Shown here: in pieces, positions 21,360 through 29,452 of the stretch
How positions within the stretch are numbered: the stretch's first letter is position 1
How the letters are laid out: the number at the start of each line of letters is the position of its first letter
From: Allonocardiopsis opalescens
GTDB taxonomy: Bacteria > Actinomycetota > Actinomycetes > Streptosporangiales > Streptosporangiaceae
Assembly: GCF_003002095.1 (NCBI RefSeq)
Contig: NZ_PVZC01000006.1
Location: 248,001-312,000 of the forward strand
Length of the DNA: 64,000 bases
Direction of reading: 5' to 3'
Notes under the pieces: model-generated
Databases searched by the model: none
Told to the model about the DNA's origin: nothing
What the model saw: the letters and a program-made list of their open reading frames with translations, nothing else
Made by a program: the position numbers and the translations under genes

Positions 21360-23201
21360 TCAGTCCCGACCGTGCCATGACCTCCACAAAGCGGCATAGG
21401 AGCCGTCGCGGGCGACAAGTTCTTCGTGGCCGCCCAATTCGGTGATCCGGCCCCCTTCGACCACCGCGACGCGGTCGGCGTCGTGCGCGGTGTGCAGCCG
21501 GTGCGCGATCGCGATCACGGTTCGGCCGCGCAGCACGGCGGCGAGCGAGCGCTCCAACTGCCGGGCGGCGCGCGGGTCGAGCAGCGAGGTCGCCTCGTCC
21601 AGGATGAGGGTGTGCGGGTCGGCCAGCACCAGCCGGGCCAGCGCCAGCTGCTGCGCCTGCGCCGGGCTGAGCGAGCGGCCGCCCGAGCCGACCGCGGTGT
21701 CCAGCCCCTCAGGCAGCTCGCGCACCCAGCCGGCCGCCTCCACCGCCTCCAGCGCGGCCCAGACCGCGGCGTCGTCGGCGTCGCCCGCGCGGACCATGGC
21801 GACGTTGTCGCGGAGGCTGGTGCGGAAGACGTGGTGCTCCTGGCTGACCAGCGCGATCCGCGAGCGCAGCTCCTCGGGCGGCCAGGAGCCCAGCTCGCGG
21901 CCGTCCAGGGTGATGGCGCCCTCGCGCGGGGTGTGGATGCCGGCCAGCAGCCGGCCCAGGGTGGACTTGCCCGCGCCGCTGGGCCCGACGACCGCCAGCC
22001 GCTCGCCCGGACGCACGTCCAGGTCGATGCCGTGCAGCACGTCGGCGCCGGCCCGGTAGCCGAAGCGCAGCCCGCGCACGCGCAGCTCGCCGCCCCGGGC
22101 GGCGGCGTCGGCCGGGGCGGCCTCGGCGCTTTCGGCGGCCGGGGCGGCGGGGGCGTCGTCGACGGCGGCCACGCCCAGCAGCCGGCGCAGCGCGGCGGCG
22201 CCGACCTGGAGGGTGTCGATCTGGGAGACGAAGCGGTCCAGCGGCTCGATCACCTGCTGGAAGTACAGCGTGGCGGCCACGGCCTGCCCGAGGGTGAGCA
22301 CGTCGGCGAAGTACAGCCAGCCGCCGCCGAGCAGCGCGGCCACGGTCGGGATGACGTAGCCGATCTCCAGCGCCGGGAACCACAGGCTGCGCAGCCACAG
22401 GGTGTAGCGCTCGGCGGTGTAGGAGCCGGCGATGTCGGCGTCGGTGCGCTCGCGGCGCAGCCGGACGCGGCCGAGCGCGACCACCGTCCTGGCCCCCTCG
22501 ACCGTGTCGGCCAGGCCCTGGGTGAGGGTGGAGTAGGCGGCCATCTCGCGCTGGTAGCCGGTGCCGGCCCGCCGCAGGTACCAGCGGGTCGACAGCACCA
22601 GCAGCGGCGCCGCGGGCAGCACGGCCAGCAGCAGCACCGGGTGCACCAGCGCGATGGCGCCGAGGGTGAACACGAGCGTGACACCGGCGATCACCGTGTC
22701 GGGCGCGGCGAAGCGCACGGCGCGGGCGAGCTGGTCGAGGTCGCGGGAGGTGCGCGAGACGAGGTCGCCGGTGCCGGCCCGCTCCACCACGGCCAGCGGC
22801 AGCCGCAGCACCCGGGAGACGAAGTCCTCGCGCAGTTCGGCGAGCACCCGCTCCCCCAGCCGCGCGGAGGCGGCCACCGCGGCGTAGGTGATGGCGGCGT
22901 GCAGCACGACGGCGCCGGCCACCAGCGCGACCAGCAGGTCGGCCCGGGCCGGCGCCATTCCGCCGGCCAGGCCGTCGACCACCAGCCCGACCAGGTACGG
23001 CACGCAGAGTCCCGCCACGGTGGCGGCGCCGTGCACCGAGACGACGCGGGCCAGCCGCGCCCGGTGCCGGCGCACGATGCGGCGCGTCTCGGCCAGCATC
23101 CGGGCGCGGTCGGCGACCGGCAGCGCCCGCGCGGGCGCGGCGGGCGCCGACGGTGCCGGGGCGGGATCGTCGGCCCGCTCGGCGACGGAGAGGTCGGTCA
23201 T
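21360..23201 (-). CDS. ABC exporter half-transporter, subunit B (catalytic Walker motifs)
   Basis: 613-residue half-transporter: about 80 cytoplasmic residues, six-helix exporter domain (SVHGAATVAGLCVPYLVGLV onward), and a C-terminal nucleotide-binding domain with intact Walker A GPSGAGKST (about 404), Walker B TLILDEATSLLD and switch His in AIAHRLHTA. Its signature is LSPAQAQQ instead of LSGGQ. ATG overlaps the stop of the partner gene (ATGA). Paired with the degenerate partner this makes one full ATP site (its Walker motifs plus the partner FSGGQ) and one degenerate site, as in asymmetric heterodimeric exporters. Substrate unknown; multidrug or lipid-type cargo is possible. Confidence 0.87.
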   Translation of the reverse strand: MTDLSVAERADDPAPAPSAPAAPARALPVADRARMLAETRRIVRRHRARLARVVSVHGAATVAGLCVPYLVGLVVDGLAGGMAPARADLLVALVAGAVVLHAAITYAAVAASARLGERVLAELREDFVSRVLRLPLAVVERAGTGDLVSRTSRDLDQLARAVRFAAPDTVIAGVTLVFTLGAIALVHPVLLLAVLPAAPLLVLSTRWYLRRAGTGYQREMAAYSTLTQGLADTVEGARTVVALGRVRLRRERTDADIAGSYTAERYTLWLRSLWFPALEIGYVIPTVAALLGGGWLYFADVLTLGQAVAATLYFQQVIEPLDRFVSQIDTLQVGAAALRRLLGVAAVDDAPAAPAAESAEAAPADAAARGGELRVRGLRFGYRAGADVLHGIDLDVRPGERLAVVGPSGAGKSTLGRLLAGIHTPREGAITLDGRELGSWPPEELRSRIALVSQEHHVFRTSLRDNVAMVRAGDADDAAVWAALEAVEAAGWVRELPEGLDTAVGSGGRSLSPAQAQQLALARLVLADPHTLILDEATSLLDPRAARQLERSLAAVLRGRTVIAIAHRLHTAHDADRVAVVEGGRITELGGHEELVARDGSYAALWRSWHGRD

Positions 23202-24913
23202 GACGGCTCGGCTCCACGGGTGACGGTGCGGGCGTACTCGGGTTCGGTGCGCAGCAGCTCGCCGTGGCGGCCGCTCGCGCGGGCGCGGCCGCCGGAGACG
23301 AAGACGACCCGGTCGGCGCGGGCGAGCAGCAGCGGGCTGGTGGTGAGCACCACGGTGGTGCGCCCGGCGCGGGCGCGGCCCAGCCGCTCGGCCACCGCCG
23401 CCTCGGTGTGCGCGTCGACGGCCGAGGCGGGCTCCACCAGCACCAGCACCTCGGGGTCGGCCAGCAGCGCCCGGGCCAGCCGCAGCCGCTGCTGCTGGCC
23501 GCCGGAGAACTCGCGGCCGCGGTCGGTGACGGCGCCGTCCAGGCCGGCCGGTAGGGCGGCCACGATGTCGTCGGCGCAGGCGGCGTGCACGGCGGCGCGC
23601 ACCCGGGCCTCCCCCTCGGGGCCGGCGGCGCCGGGGTCCAGCTCGGTGCGCAGGGTGCCGGGGAAGAGCCAGGCGTCGTTGTCGGCGACCAGGATGCGGC
23701 GGCGCAGCTCGGCCTCTGACAGCTCGGCGAGGTCGGTGCCGCCGTAGTCGACGCGGCCGGGCTCGTAGCCGCCCAGCCGCTCGGCCAGCCTGAGCATGTC
23801 GTCGGGGTCGGTGCCGGCCACCGCGGTGACCACGCCGGGCTCGATCCGGACGCCGCTGCCGGCGTCGTACAGCGCGGCCGGGCCGCTCGGCCCGGGTGCG
23901 GGCCGCCGCGGCTCGGTCCGGTCGGGCGGCAGCGCCAGGATGCGCACCACCCGTCCGGCCGCGACCCGGGCCGCGACGTAGCGGCGGACCATGTCGGTGA
24001 GGAAGTGCACCGGGATGGCGAGATAGCCGGCGTAGCCGTAGAAGGCGACCAGCTGCCCGGGGGTGATCTCGCCGGCCAGCGCCAGCCGGGCGCCGAGCCA
24101 GATGACGGCGACGGTCAGCAGCCCCGGCAGCAGGGTGCCCACCGCCTGGAGCAGCGCCTCGGACCGGCCCACCCGCTCCCCGGCCGCGCGCACGGCCTGG
24201 GACTCCTCGCGGTAGCGGGCGCCGAACAGCGACTCGCCGCCGACGCCGCGCAGCACCCGCAGGCCCGACACGATGTCGACGGCGCGGGAGCTGAGCTTGG
24301 ACTGGAGTTCGCGCTGGCCGTGCTGGCGGCGCTGGAGCGGGCGCATCAGCGGCCCGATGCCGAGCATCATCAGCGGCACGCCGATGACCACCAGCAGCCC
24401 GAAGGGCGGCGACACGTACAGCAGCCAGCCGCCGACGGCCGCCACGACCACGGCGGAGGAGACGGCGTAGCCGGTGTGCTCGGCCAGTTCGCCGATCTCG
24501 TCGATGTCGTGCGCGCCCACCGCGACGACCTCGCCCGAGGGGATGCGGCGGGTGAGGGCGGCGCCGAGCCGGGCGGCGCGGTCGGCCACCACCTGCGCGG
24601 AGCGGTAGGTGGCGGCGCACCAGTTGAAGACGGAGGCGCGGTGCGCGACCACGCCGAGCACGGCCTGGACGCAGCCGACCGCCATCAGCAGGCCGGCCCA
24701 GCCGGCCAGCGCGGGCGGCTCGCCGCGGGTGAGCCCGGCGTCGACGGCGGCGCCGACCACGGCGGGCAGCACCGCCTGCGCCCCCTGCCACAGGGTCATC
24801 GCCACGGTGGCGAAAGCGATCGAGCCCGCCTGGGTGCCCAGCACCCACCGCAGGTACCCGGCGGGTCCGCGGTGGTCAGGGGTTCCGGGGTCGGTCACCG
24901 GCAAGTCGCGCAC
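23198..24913 (-). CDS. ABC exporter half-transporter, subunit A (degenerate ATP site)
   Basis: 571-residue half-transporter with six-helix exporter domain (GSIAFATVAMTLWQGAQAVL onward) and an NBD in which several catalytic motifs are lost: the Walker A position reads AVAGTDPDDMLRLAER (about 364-380) without GKS/T, Walker B is VLVLVEPASAVD (Asp to Val), and the switch His region is VLTTSPLLL. The signature FSGGQQQRLRLARALL is canonical. So it supplies a working signature to subunit B but cannot hydrolyse ATP itself. GTG start with AGGAC upstream; first gene of the two-gene unit. Confidence 0.85.
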   Translation of the reverse strand: MRDLPVTDPGTPDHRGPAGYLRWVLGTQAGSIAFATVAMTLWQGAQAVLPAVVGAAVDAGLTRGEPPALAGWAGLLMAVGCVQAVLGVVAHRASVFNWCAATYRSAQVVADRAARLGAALTRRIPSGEVVAVGAHDIDEIGELAEHTGYAVSSAVVVAAVGGWLLYVSPPFGLLVVIGVPLMMLGIGPLMRPLQRRQHGQRELQSKLSSRAVDIVSGLRVLRGVGGESLFGARYREESQAVRAAGERVGRSEALLQAVGTLLPGLLTVAVIWLGARLALAGEITPGQLVAFYGYAGYLAIPVHFLTDMVRRYVAARVAAGRVVRILALPPDRTEPRRPAPGPSGPAALYDAGSGVRIEPGVVTAVAGTDPDDMLRLAERLGGYEPGRVDYGGTDLAELSEAELRRRILVADNDAWLFPGTLRTELDPGAAGPEGEARVRAAVHAACADDIVAALPAGLDGAVTDRGREFSGGQQQRLRLARALLADPEVLVLVEPASAVDAHTEAAVAERLGRARAGRTTVVLTTSPLLLARADRVVFVSGGRARASGRHGELLRTEPEYARTVTRGAEPS

Positions 24914-24980
24914 AAGTCCTGGACACTAACCGGACGTAGCCGGCCGGACCACCGATTTTTCCGGTGGGCGCGGACGTGCG

Positions 24981-25016
24981 GCCGCCCCCGGCGCGGTTGC
25001 CGCGGCCGGGGGCGGC
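24981..25016. terminator. Terminator after metQ
   Basis: Perfect 12-bp inverted repeat (GCCGCCCCCGGC / GCCGGGGGCGGC) with a 12-base, itself self-complementary loop, 14 bp after the metQ stop and upstream of the ABC exporter genes. Confidence 0.65.
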
Positions 25017-25030
25017 GGGGTTCCGCGAGC

Positions 25031-25924
25031 TCAGCCGCCGTACACGTACAGGCCGAGCGGTTCGACGTGCACGTCGGTCAGGTACTGGAAGTCCTCGCCC
25101 TCGCCCTGCCCGGCCAGGAACTCCGCCAGGTAGGGGCGGTGCTGGAAGAAGTTGGCGTCCAGTTCGCCGTCGGCCAGCTGGAGGTTGGGCTGCACGTAGT
25201 CGCTGAACTCGATGATCTCCAGGTCGAGTCCGGCGTCGGCGGCCAGCTCCGAGTCGACGTAGCCGAGGATCTCGCCGTGCGGCACCGGGCTCACGCCGAC
25301 CCGCAGCGGCTCGCCCGGGTCGTCCAGCGGCTGCACGTCGGCGGCCGGCCCCGTCGGGGTGAACGCGGGCACCACCGAGCCGTTGGTGTAGGTCTCGGCG
25401 ATGAAGTCGTGCACCTCCTGGGTGTTGAGCAGGGCGCCCAGCTGCTCCACCCGCGGGTCGTCGGCGTTCTCGCCCTGGGCCACCAGGCCGTTGGCGTAGG
25501 GGTTGTCCTCGCCGGACTCCAGCACGATGGCGTCCTCGGCCGGGTTGAGGCCGGCCTCGATGGCGTAGTTGCCGTTGACGATCGCGGCGTCGAAGTCCTG
25601 CAGCGAGCGGGGCAGCTGGGCCGCCTCCAGCGGGACGAACTGGATGCCGCGCGGGTTCTCGGCGATGTCCTGCTCGGTGACGCTGCCCTCGACCTCGGGG
25701 TCGAGGGTGATCAGCCCCTCCCCGGCCAGCAGCTGCAGCGAGCGGCCCAGGTTGGCGGGGTCGTTGGGCACGCCGATCTGGGCGCCGTCGGGCAGCTCGT
25801 CCACGCTGGTGACCGGGCCGGCCGACTCGCCGCCGCCGTCCACGGGATCGCCCGGGGCGCCGCAGGCCGCGAGCAGGGCGAGCACGGCGATTCCCCCGGT
25901 CACGGCGCCTGGATACGTACGCAC
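25031..25924 (-). CDS. metQ: Methionine-binding lipoprotein MetQ, circularly permuted
   Basis: Substrate-binding lipoprotein of the methionine importer, 297 residues. Signal peptide with lipobox LLAAC (Cys21). The NLPA/MetQ blocks appear in permuted order: the normally C-terminal half comes first (VDELPDGAQIGVPNDPAN at 41-58, LEAAQLPRSL at 99-108, AAIVNGNYAIEAGLNP at 113-128, GSVVPAF at 182-188), then a 19-residue linker rich in Pro and Asp (189-207), then the normally N-terminal half (RVGVSPVPHGEIL from 208, FSDYVQPNLQLADGELDANF 240-259, VHVEPLGLY 285-293). All blocks are present, so the fold may be preserved. GTG start with AAGGAG 7 bases upstream. Last gene of metNIQ. Confidence 0.85.
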   Translation of the reverse strand: MRTYPGAVTGGIAVLALLAACGAPGDPVDGGGESAGPVTSVDELPDGAQIGVPNDPANLGRSLQLLAGEGLITLDPEVEGSVTEQDIAENPRGIQFVPLEAAQLPRSLQDFDAAIVNGNYAIEAGLNPAEDAIVLESGEDNPYANGLVAQGENADDPRVEQLGALLNTQEVHDFIAETYTNGSVVPAFTPTGPAADVQPLDDPGEPLRVGVSPVPHGEILGYVDSELAADAGLDLEIIEFSDYVQPNLQLADGELDANFFQHRPYLAEFLAGQGEGEDFQYLTDVHVEPLGLYVYGG

Positions 25925-25992
25925 GGTGTTCTCCTTGTCTCGATGGTGTCGCCCGGGCGGGGTCGCCGCCCGGACCGTGGTGTCCGGCCGCC

Positions 25993-26667
25993 TCAGCGGT
26001 GGGAGAGCCGGCGCGCCGCCAGGTCGCCGAGCGACTGCAGCAGCTGGACGACGACGACCAGCAGCACGACGCACAGCAGCAGCACGAGTTCGTCGAAGCG
26101 CTGGTAGCCGAAGCGGATCGCGACGTCGCCGAGGCCGCCGCCGCCGATGGCCCCGGCCATGGCCGAGTACGACACCAGCGCGACGACGGTGACGGTCAGC
26201 CCGGCGATCAGCCCGGGCAGCGCCTCGGGCAGCAGCACCTTGGCCACGATCGTGCCGCGCCCGGCGCCCATGGCCTCGGCCGCCTCGATGACGTCGCGGC
26301 CGACCTCGCGCAGCGAGGTCTCGACCAGCCGGGCGTAGAACGGGATGGCGCCCAGGGTGAGCGGCACGATGGCGGCGGTGGGGCCGATGGTGGTGCCGGT
26401 GATGAAGCGGGTGAAGGTCAGCACCGCCACCATCAGCACGATGAACGGCACCGAGCGGCCGATGTTGACGATCGCGCCGAGCACCGCCCGCAGCCAGGGC
26501 GCCGGCAGCAGCCGGCCGCGCTCGGTGGCGTAGAGCAGCACGCCGAGCGGCAGCCCGAACAGCGCGGTGAACAGGGTGGACCAGCCGACCATGTACAGGG
26601 TGGCGTAGGTGCCGTCGAAGAGCAGCGGGCCGAGCTCGTCCCAGCGTTCGGCCAGTTCGGTGAGCAT
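25993..26667 (-). CDS. metI: Methionine ABC transporter permease MetI
   Basis: 224-residue inner-membrane permease with five or six hydrophobic helices and the coupling loop IEAAEAMGAGRGTIVAKVLLP, followed by the family block SYSAMAGAIGGGGLGDVAIR. Size and motifs are standard for MetI. Its ATG overlaps the metN TGA by one base (TGATG), giving translational coupling. Confidence 0.92.
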   Translation of the reverse strand: MLTELAERWDELGPLLFDGTYATLYMVGWSTLFTALFGLPLGVLLYATERGRLLPAPWLRAVLGAIVNIGRSVPFIVLMVAVLTFTRFITGTTIGPTAAIVPLTLGAIPFYARLVETSLREVGRDVIEAAEAMGAGRGTIVAKVLLPEALPGLIAGLTVTVVALVSYSAMAGAIGGGGLGDVAIRFGYQRFDELVLLLCVVLLVVVVQLLQSLGDLAARRLSHR

Positions 26668-27680
26668 CAGGCACCCTCTCCGGTGGGCTCGGCGCCGTCG
26701 GCGGCGAGCGGGTCGCCGGCGGTCCGCACGGCCAGGCCGCGGGCGCGCAGGTACTCCAGCGCCTCGGCGGTGCGCTCGCCGGTGAGCTGTACCTTCAGCC
26801 GCCCGTACGGCGCGCCGGCCACGGTCTCGACCGTACCGGCCAGGATGTTGACGTCCACGTCGAACTCGCGGGTGAGCGCCGACAAGACCGGTTCGGTGGC
26901 GCGTTCGGCGTAGCTCAGGGTGACCACCCCGGGCAGGTCGACGGTGGGCAGCGGGAAGAGCGCGTCGGCGAGCCGGGAGTCGGGGGCGGCCAGCAGCTCG
27001 GGCAGCGGCCCGGACTCCAGGAAGCGGCCGTCGTGCATGACGGCGGCGGAGTCGCAGACCCGCTTGATCACGCCCATCTCGTGGGTGATCAGCAGGACGG
27101 TGAGGCCCAGTTCGCGGTTGAGCCGGCGCAGCAGGTCGAGGATGGACCCGGTGGTCTCGGGGTCCAGCGCGGAGGTCGCCTCGTCAGAGAGCAGCACCTT
27201 GGGGCCGGCGGCCAGCGCGCGGGCGATGCCCACCCGCTGCTTCTGCCCGCCGGACAGCTGCGCCGGGTAGGAGCCGCCGCGGTCGCCCAGCCCCACCACG
27301 TCGAGCAGTTCGGCCACCCTGCGGGCGCGCTGCGCGCGGGGGGTGCCCATGACCTCCAGCGGGAAGGCGACATTGCCCGCCACCGTGCGCGAGGACAGCA
27401 GCGCGAAGTGCTGGTGGATCATGCCGATGCCGCGCCGGGCCCGGCGCAGCGCGGCGCCGCGCAGGGCCGTCATGTCCTGGCCGTCGACGCGCACCGAGCC
27501 GGAGGTGGGGCGCTCCAGCAGGTTGACGCAGCGCAGCAGGGTGCTCTTGCCGGCGCCGCTGCGGCCGAGGATGCCGAAGACCTGCCCCTGCGGCACGTGC
27601 AGGTCGACGCCGTCGAGGGCCTGGACGGTCCGGCCGCGGCCCAGGTCGTAGACCTTGGTCAGGTTCTGGACGTCGATCAA
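26667..27680 (-). CDS. metN: Methionine ABC transporter ATPase MetN
   Basis: 337-residue cytoplasmic ATPase of D/L-methionine import. Walker A GRSGAGKST (39-47), Q-loop region MIHQHFALLSSRTV, signature LSGGQKQRVGIARAL, Walker B VLLSDEATSALD (Ser where Met or Leu is common), switch His in LLITHEMGVI, and a C-terminal NIL regulatory domain (about 265-337) that in the family binds methionine to shut off transport. TTG at 27680 is chosen because it starts at the family N-terminus (IDVQNLTKVY) and follows AAAGGGAG; a longer reading to 27881 is open but unconserved. No SAM riboswitch was recognised upstream. Confidence 0.9.
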   Translation of the reverse strand: MIDVQNLTKVYDLGRGRTVQALDGVDLHVPQGQVFGILGRSGAGKSTLLRCVNLLERPTSGSVRVDGQDMTALRGAALRRARRGIGMIHQHFALLSSRTVAGNVAFPLEVMGTPRAQRARRVAELLDVVGLGDRGGSYPAQLSGGQKQRVGIARALAAGPKVLLSDEATSALDPETTGSILDLLRRLNRELGLTVLLITHEMGVIKRVCDSAAVMHDGRFLESGPLPELLAAPDSRLADALFPLPTVDLPGVVTLSYAERATEPVLSALTREFDVDVNILAGTVETVAGAPYGRLKVQLTGERTAEALEYLRARGLAVRTAGDPLAADGAEPTGEGA

Positions 27681-28000
27681 GGGCTCCCTTTCGCGGACGT
27701 GCCGCGCCACCGGCGGCAGGTATGGGTCCACGCGTGCAACGGCGCGCCGCCGCACGATATTGCCGCGGCCGGTGAGATGTCGACCACCCGGCGTCGCGCA
27801 CCGCCGCCGCGCCGCCCCGCCCCTCTGCGCACTCCCGACATTCCCTACTTTTCCGATATTCCTTGCTGAGAACTCGGCCATCTTAGCGCGGTGGCGAGGG
27901 CTTCCGGCCCGCGCGGCGCACCGTTACCGGACGGGCCTTGGGCGGCGGCCCGGCGGCCGGTAGCGTGGCGGTCCACCACGGTGACGAACGGAGTACCCGC

Positions 28001-29452
28001 ATGCCCGAAGCGCTACGAAGATCCTCTGGCACCGGACCGGCGGGGAGGCTCCGCCGCGCGGTGCTCCCCGCCGCCGTGGCCCTCGGCCTGCTGGCCGGGG
28101 CCGCCCCCGCCGCAGCCGAGCCCGAGCCCGACCCGGTGGACGAGCTGGCCGCCGCCTTCGAGGCGCTCCCCGGCCTCACCGTGGTCTCGGCCGAGCCGGC
28201 GCCCGGCGGAGCGCACATCTTCCTGACGCTGAGCTTCACCCAGCGGGTCGACCACACCGACCCCTCGGCGGGCACCTTCGAACAGCGCCTCACCGTGCTG
28301 CACCGCGGCTTCGACCGGCCCACCGTGCTGCACACCACCGGGTACGGGCTGGTGGAGCGGCCGTTCCGCGACGAGCCGACCGTCATGCTCGACGGCAACC
28401 AGGTGCACACCGAGCAGCGCTTCTTCAGCCCCTCGCGCCCCGACCCGGCCGACTGGTCCGATCTGGACATCTGGCAGGCCGCCACCGACCACCACCGCAT
28501 CGTGGCCGCGATCGACGACCTGTACGAGGGCGCGTGGATCTCCACCGGCGCCTCCAAGGGCGGCATGACCTCGGTCTACCACCGCCGCTTCTACCCCGGC
28601 GACGTCGACGGCACGGTCGCCTATGTGGCGCCCAACGACGTGCACGACCGGCACGACGCCGCCTACCTGGACTTCTTCGAGACCGTCGGCACCGATCCCG
28701 CCTGCCAGGAGTCGCTGGCGGCGCTGCAGCACGAGGCGCTGGAGCGCCGCGGCGAGCTGCTGGAGCGCTACGAGGCGGCGGCCGCGGCCGAGGGCTGGAC
28801 CTTCACCCAGACCCTGGGCAGCGCCGACCGGGCGCTGGAGATGCTGATCCTGGACACGCCGTGGGCCTTCTGGCAGTACCAGGAGGAGTCGGCCTGCGCC
28901 GCGGTGCCGGCCGCGGACGCGTCCACCGACGAGATCTACGCCTTCCTGGACGAGATCTCCGGCTTCGCCTTCTACACCGACCAGGGCACGATCCCCTACA
29001 TCCCGTACTACTACCAGGCGGGCACCCAGCTGGGTTCGCCGTCGGTGCCGACCGGGCACGTCGAGGAGCTGCTGCGCTACCCCGGGCTGTTCGGCCCGCG
29101 CTCCTACGTGCCGCGCGAGATCCCGATGCGCTTCGACCACCGGGCCATGCCCGACATCGACCGCTGGGTGCGCACCCAGGGCAGTGAGCTGCTCTTCGTC
29201 AACGGCGAGTTCGACCCCTGGGCCGCGGAGCCGTTCCGGCTCGGCCACCGCACCCGCGACTCGCTCAGCCTGGAGGTGCCCCGCGGCAACCACGGCGCCG
29301 ACATCGCGCAGCTGCCCGCCGCCGACCGCGAGCGCGCCGGCGAGGCGCTGCTGCGCTGGGCCGGACTCGACGGCGTGGCGGCGCTGAGCACTCCGGCGCC
29401 GGCCATTCCCGAGCTGGACGAGGTCGAGATCGACCGGGGGCCGACCCGCTGA
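28001..29452 (+). CDS. Secreted S37-family serine aminopeptidase
   Basis: Probable exported tripeptidyl-aminopeptidase-like hydrolase of peptidase family S37 (alpha/beta-hydrolase fold). 483 residues: signal peptide about 1-40 (Arg-rich start, LPAAVALGLLAGAAPAAA), then the family core. Nucleophile Ser lies in STGASKGGM; the Asp in NGEFDPW and His in RGNHGAD fit the rest of the triad. ATG at 28001 has GAACGGAG 8 bases upstream. Single-gene unit ending at a strong terminator; likely supplies peptides during growth on protein. Confidence 0.8.
   Translation: MPEALRRSSGTGPAGRLRRAVLPAAVALGLLAGAAPAAAEPEPDPVDELAAAFEALPGLTVVSAEPAPGGAHIFLTLSFTQRVDHTDPSAGTFEQRLTVLHRGFDRPTVLHTTGYGLVERPFRDEPTVMLDGNQVHTEQRFFSPSRPDPADWSDLDIWQAATDHHRIVAAIDDLYEGAWISTGASKGGMTSVYHRRFYPGDVDGTVAYVAPNDVHDRHDAAYLDFFETVGTDPACQESLAALQHEALERRGELLERYEAAAAAEGWTFTQTLGSADRALEMLILDTPWAFWQYQEESACAAVPAADASTDEIYAFLDEISGFAFYTDQGTIPYIPYYYQAGTQLGSPSVPTGHVEELLRYPGLFGPRSYVPREIPMRFDHRAMPDIDRWVRTQGSELLFVNGEFDPWAAEPFRLGHRTRDSLSLEVPRGNHGADIAQLPAADRERAGEALLRWAGLDGVAALSTPAPAIPELDEVEIDRGPTR

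Follow-up and report, generated by a model that had tools for sequence, protein, structure and literature searches.

Natural circular permutation of a lipid-tethered ABC binding protein has been described for TpMglB-2 (Tp0684) of Treponema pallidum, a Type I glucose-binding protein designated 'Type Ic / Cluster Bc' (PMC4990184). In the passages of that report cited here, the authors proposed a permuted subclass, suggested a link with membrane tethering, placed the relatives of TpMglB-2 mostly in treponemes and Gram-positives, and found that sequence was poorly conserved across the portion that is permuted. For the methionine-binding lipoproteins of the MetQ/NlpA family (PF03180; E. coli 4yah, N. 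meningitidis 6cva and 6dzx), the titles and abstract openings listed in searches of open-licence PMC papers contained no description of a permuted member.

We consider it very probable, from the sequence and a predicted structure, that the metQ gene in the 64,000-nucleotide stretch of DNA analysed here (the window; Table 1) encodes a MetQ that is genuinely circularly permuted and most likely works, as a lipid-anchored protein that binds methionine and passes it to the adjoining MetNI importer. The protein shares with other MetQ/NlpA members the family itself, the ligand-contact residues, linkage to metN and metI, and a fold match over its first 150 residues, and its start, read by eye, resembles a lipobox; it differs from them in having the halves of the chain swapped, a different segment as the bearer of the anchor, and the former ends connected by a linker. 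Like TpMglB-2, which keeps ligand binding, it is a natural circular permutation of a lipid-tethered ABC binding protein. Unlike TpMglB-2, as far as the cited passages describe it, it belongs to another fold class, both of its halves are clearly homologous to their family, and the swap, which adds a fourth lobe crossing in TpMglB-2, would remove one in MetQ.

Table 1. Features of the metNIQ locus and its neighbours (positions in the window), and other permuted loci
Feature	Position	Strand	Remarks
Two apparent ABC exporter half-transporters, downstream of metQ	21360..24913	-	23198-24913 Pfam-checked, the other by eye
metQ, circularly permuted putative methionine-binding lipoprotein, 297 aa	25031..25924	-	GTG start; single open frame
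New C-terminal tail VYGG and stop	25031..25045	-	
N-terminal portion of the family (PF03180 1-84), in second place here; residues 207-293	25046..25306	-	Y243, F260, H262 and Y265 inside
Linker from old C-terminus to old N-terminus, residues 189-206, 18 aa	25307..25360	-	Blocks 181-210: mean pLDDT 96
C-terminal portion of the family (PF03180 87-236), in first place here; residues 37-188	25361..25816	-	R61, N117/N119 and N145 inside
Spacer, residues 22-36, Gly/Asp-rich	25817..25861	-	Low pLDDT: 61 (block 21-30), 77 (block 31-40)
Putative signal peptide and lipobox	25862..25924	-	LLAAC ending at Cys21; read by eye
metI, permease, 224 aa	25993..26667	-	212.3 bits (NCBIfam MetI cut-off 212)
metN, ATPase with NIL domain	26667..27680	-	TTG start assumed; best NCBIfam TIGR02314 MetN, 357.4 bits, under cut-off 499.7
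Divergent gene beside metN, PS-10 (S37) peptidase	28001..29452	+	
Permuted MetQ loci besides the source genome			L035, L037, L039, L049, L051; L164-L175, L194-L199, L239, L240

The three genes lie in the order metN-metI-metQ on a single strand, with metN and metI overlapping by 1 base and a gap of 68 bases between metI and metQ; an AAGGAG motif ends 6 bases before the GTG of metQ. The reading frame of metQ runs unbroken from the putative signal peptide through the spacer, the two halves and the linker to the stop, and metN carries ABC and NIL domains (Pfam). When positions 24800-28300 were scanned with Rfam for an upstream SAM riboswitch, the only matches were two to mir-598, far under the gathering score.

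The metQ product scores 257.1 bits against PF03180 (curated cut-off 27), the sole Pfam family found on it at E 0.001, and the match breaks the canonical order: profile positions 87-236 fall on residues 37-188, ahead of profile positions 1-84 on residues 207-293. Both stretches lie above the family cut-off, and chance is excluded as the source of the two half matches because their E values are 5.9e-49 and 9.6e-25 (profile search, one genome). Searched against the PDB with phmmer, the product gave a two-stretch match in 21 of 22 distinct sequences, and the swap is seen in all three alignments inspected (4k3f, 3up9 and 4qhq); for 4k3f, residues 205-293 of the query lie on residues 3-88 of the chain, and 40-188 on 94-240. 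None of the 22 matches is named as a sugar-binding protein, and this search thus gave no homology to the Type I sugar-binding MglB. When a canonical relative (L007) was doubled, as the original prediction had proposed, residues 38-293 aligned with it as one continuous segment (57% identity, 276 bits), whereas against single-copy L007 the alignment split in two (163 + 129 bits); six further canonical relatives behaved in the same way. The best of 238 rotations of L007 was at residue 86, between EPLGLY and SRKIKS (score 708 vs 403 unrotated), and that of L144 was at 92, one point over 86, so that the cut position is known to within a few residues. Between each half and these seven canonical proteins the identity is 49-71%. 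The profile, the PDB alignments and the doubled relatives all agree with the reversed order of halves that had been predicted, and the limits given at the time need only small changes: the first half ends at residue 188 as stated, but family homology starts at 37-38 rather than at 41, and by the PF03180 match limits the linker has 18 residues (189-206) instead of 19. The product also scores 149.4 bits on NCBIfam TIGR00363, under the cut-off of 228.85; the idea that the NCBIfam models miss it owing to the permutation was dropped, since all four canonical actinobacterial relatives scored on these models likewise fall below the cut-off (159.9-203.1), which makes the low TIGR00363 score uninformative on the permutation.

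The genus Allonocardiopsis is represented in the collection by the source genome alone. With the metQ product as query, 242 of 341 genomes of the family matched, and among the matches listed only the source genome had a full-length one, the next-best genome having a half match (E 5.5e-52); in the class (345 genomes, 136 matched) it was again the sole full-length match among those listed. When 200 genomes drawn from the family were searched with PF03180 (134 matched), the listed matches better than 1e-54 were canonical, running from 1-2 to 231-236, and those listed after them were the two halves of the source genome followed by weaker partial matches. Three related genera (G023, G021 and G007) have a canonical metQ directly after metI, with MetI proteins 73-75% identical to that of the source. 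The original prediction had regarded it as an objection if near relatives had the halves of this gene in the usual order. These genera do, but this does not falsify the permutation; on this comparison the permuted state at the metNIQ locus is the derived one, because all three are canonical at the same locus.

The structure of the product was predicted with AlphaFold from an alignment of 66 rows, in which naturally permuted proteins were combined with halves taken unaltered from canonical ones, a composition for which 60 of 60 fragments were correctly aligned in a local test. The resulting model is confident (pLDDT 90.1, pTM 0.83), the linker included (pLDDT 96), and from residue 41 on the ten-residue blocks have mean pLDDT values of 91-98, save for 84 at 271-280 and 88 at the end. 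The fold aligners used are sequential, so the whole permuted fold is not superposed: the MetQ-type chains listed match mostly residues 37-191 (1p99 to 270, 6cvl_E to 215), and 4k3f matches with Z 17.5 and rmsd 2.8 over 150 residues. With some other Type II binding proteins and ATP phosphoribosyltransferases, residues from about 42 to 297 could be aligned without any reordering of the sequence (Z 9-13), which is what the pseudo-symmetry of the lobes would allow.

In the portion of the structural report cited here, the methionine contacts of Neisseria MetQ are R156, N213 and N238 in one domain and Y81, F98, H100 and Y103 in the other (PMC6739813). All seven are matched by the same residues in the metQ product. 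Y243, F260, H262 and Y265 have spacing identical to the second of these sets; R61 is equated with R156 through the residue ranges of the structural alignment, the counterpart of N213 is N117 or N119 and, by alignment, that of N238 is N145; N145 and R61 align with E. coli N229 and R144, respectively. In E. coli MetQ, most of the affinity disappears with N229A. The two lobe-specific sets map to separate contiguous segments, residues 61-145 and 243-265, and the cut falls between them, which is no more than consistent with the earlier placement of the break at a lobe crossing.

The source version is known from a single genome of the family (1 of 341), so that conservation of this event is not demonstrable, and such a distribution is what one might expect if the gene were a permuted relic, or if its product served a different ligand or function and were no working methionine receptor. 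We nevertheless regard that reading as unlikely, since third-position GC is strong in both halves (1.00 and 0.97, vs 0.97 in metN), the contact residues are kept, metN and metI are linked to the gene, and no other PF03180 gene was found in the genome. The genome search at E 0.001 also gave no extra copy of either half, and so no second N-terminal half upstream, a circumstance that had been raised against the permutation. That this is a working protein, as originally proposed, is probably right, given the permutation-aware alignment, the model, the ligand residues, the linkage to metN and metI, and the permuted MetQs found in other bacteria.

These came in part from a scan of named genomes (130 relatives, 80 loci kept), in which a half-order test gave 5 permuted, 74 canonical and 1 single-half locus, the ranking having used the permuted query and thus possibly favouring permuted matches. 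The five belong to a sheep-colon Clostridia bacterium, one Gemmiger, one Faecalibacterium and two Coriobacteriia bacteria, the first of these being of the Eggerthellaceae, and in each of these genomes the permuted gene is the sole source of PF03180 matches. An ABC ATPase lies beside the permuted gene in all five loci and a MetI-like permease (by eye) in four, and the model of the L039 protein (pLDDT 93.5, pTM 0.84) equals that of the source protein in confidence. Permuted forms were found in 13 of 197 genomes (57 with a match) in the order of the Faecalibacterium, which we take to be Oscillospirales, in 7 of 197 Coriobacteriia (97 with a match), and in 3 of 299 genomes (167 with a match; one of the three had been counted before) of the phylum of the Faecalibacterium. 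Among 349 Pseudomonadota genomes, 92 of them with a match, the matches listed include no full-length permuted one. The total is 26 distinct genomes, the source included, and the permuted MetQs of the order of Faecalibacterium and of Coriobacteriia are new here. A fourth long match in the same phylum (G1266) was rejected, as it crosses a stop codon and represents a tandem pair of canonical genes. As a separate observation, the MetN-like ATPases at L037:2392-3129, L039:2302-3072, L049:2336-3085 and L051:2392-3183 are without the Pfam NIL domain at E 0.001, and the domain is present in the MetN of the source genome and of L035.

To assess the number of origins we used a tree of 86 chosen proteins, 24 permuted and 62 canonical, with the halves set in one order. 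The source protein groups with actinobacterial canonical proteins (support 100/92), and the permutation label requires 5 changes on the tree, of which branches with strong support make at least 3 unavoidable. Forcing all 24 permuted proteins into one clade costs 148 log-likelihood units and is rejected by the AU test (p = 7e-5), and it is therefore well supported by the phylogeny that permutation in MetQ arose at least twice. Further tests, designed after the tree was seen, reject the 23 other permuted proteins as one clade (p 0.0046) and do not reject the 8 Coriobacteriia rows (p 0.45) or the remaining 15 rows (p 0.41) as one clade each. Three origins probably fit these data best; in the groups other than the source, one early origin followed by reversals or transfers may also account for the pattern. 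The same comparisons make the finding broader than the original prediction, as permutation is indicated more than once in the family. In trees of the separate halves, the N-terminal half of the source is nearest to members of its own family and the C-terminal half to the actinobacterial L038, both with weak support, and the N-half tree alone (85 columns) contains one forced change only. The permuted metQ of the source genome is possibly a fusion of two diverged copies.

Since permuted MetQs also occur among Coriobacteriia and in the order to which Faecalibacterium belongs, the source metQ might have been acquired from a bacterium of one of these groups. We find this very improbable, because of the rejected single clade, the placement of the whole protein, and with weak support of each half alone, among actinobacterial canonical proteins, and the position of the cut, which lies before the SVDEL helix in the source and after the corresponding SLDEL helix, about 10 residues further on, in the other permuted proteins inspected. 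Misassembly, with the two parts of a canonical gene exchanged, is also very improbable. Although there is one assembly, in 22 contigs, the gene is internal to a contig of 539 kb, the frame is unbroken from signal peptide to stop, searches gave neither a second copy of either half nor long junction repeats to drive a mis-join, and the same kind of permutation occurs in 25 other genomes.

For a genuine, locally derived permutation, the route would begin with a tandem duplication, followed by in-frame fusion, after which the leading copy would lose its first half and the trailing copy its second, the signal peptide being kept; in effect the ancestral protein would have been cut just after EPLGLY and its old ends joined by the 18-residue linker. 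A tandem metQ pair would be the expected and plausible intermediate, and adjacent pairs exist at L033:3743-5320, where the copies are 12 bases apart, and at L241 (G1266). A search of metQ for a duplication scar or long repeat gave only imperfect pairs of 24 and 18 nt inside the gene. Elsewhere, L103 has two metQ copies close together.

The chain crosses twice between the lobes in the Type II topology, and the cut would fall on one of these crossings, leaving one; the bilobed flytrap would still close on methionine, and what would have changed is the segment that bears the lipid anchor and the loss of one crossing. Only the segment carrying the anchor must change in a permuted MetQ, and the turned docking geometry of the original prediction is at most a possibility. 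The moved anchor could matter because lipidated MetQ is, in the passages cited, required for maximal stimulation of MetNI in Neisseria (PMC8416018). We put forward only tentatively, and as something rather less than an even prospect, that selection has repeatedly favoured permutation next to the hinge in membrane-tethered methionine-binding proteins of Gram-positive bacteria, with at least three origins, two neighbouring cut sites, the anchor on the other segment and a single lobe crossing, tuning flytrap closure or MetNI docking.

A natural circular permutation amounts to a natural experiment where close, unpermuted orthologues occur in the same operon. The MetQ family offers several of these, and the two forms are directly comparable because the source halves have kept their identity to canonical relatives. 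They make it possible to test the role of anchor placement and of the number of hinge crossings in binding proteins, a question that was raised and left open for TpMglB-2 in the cited part of its description (PMC4990184). Within the otherwise permuted 16-row group around the Faecalibacterium proteins, we also observed a long-branch canonical MetQ (L220, genome G677), possibly a near outgroup to one of the permutation events.
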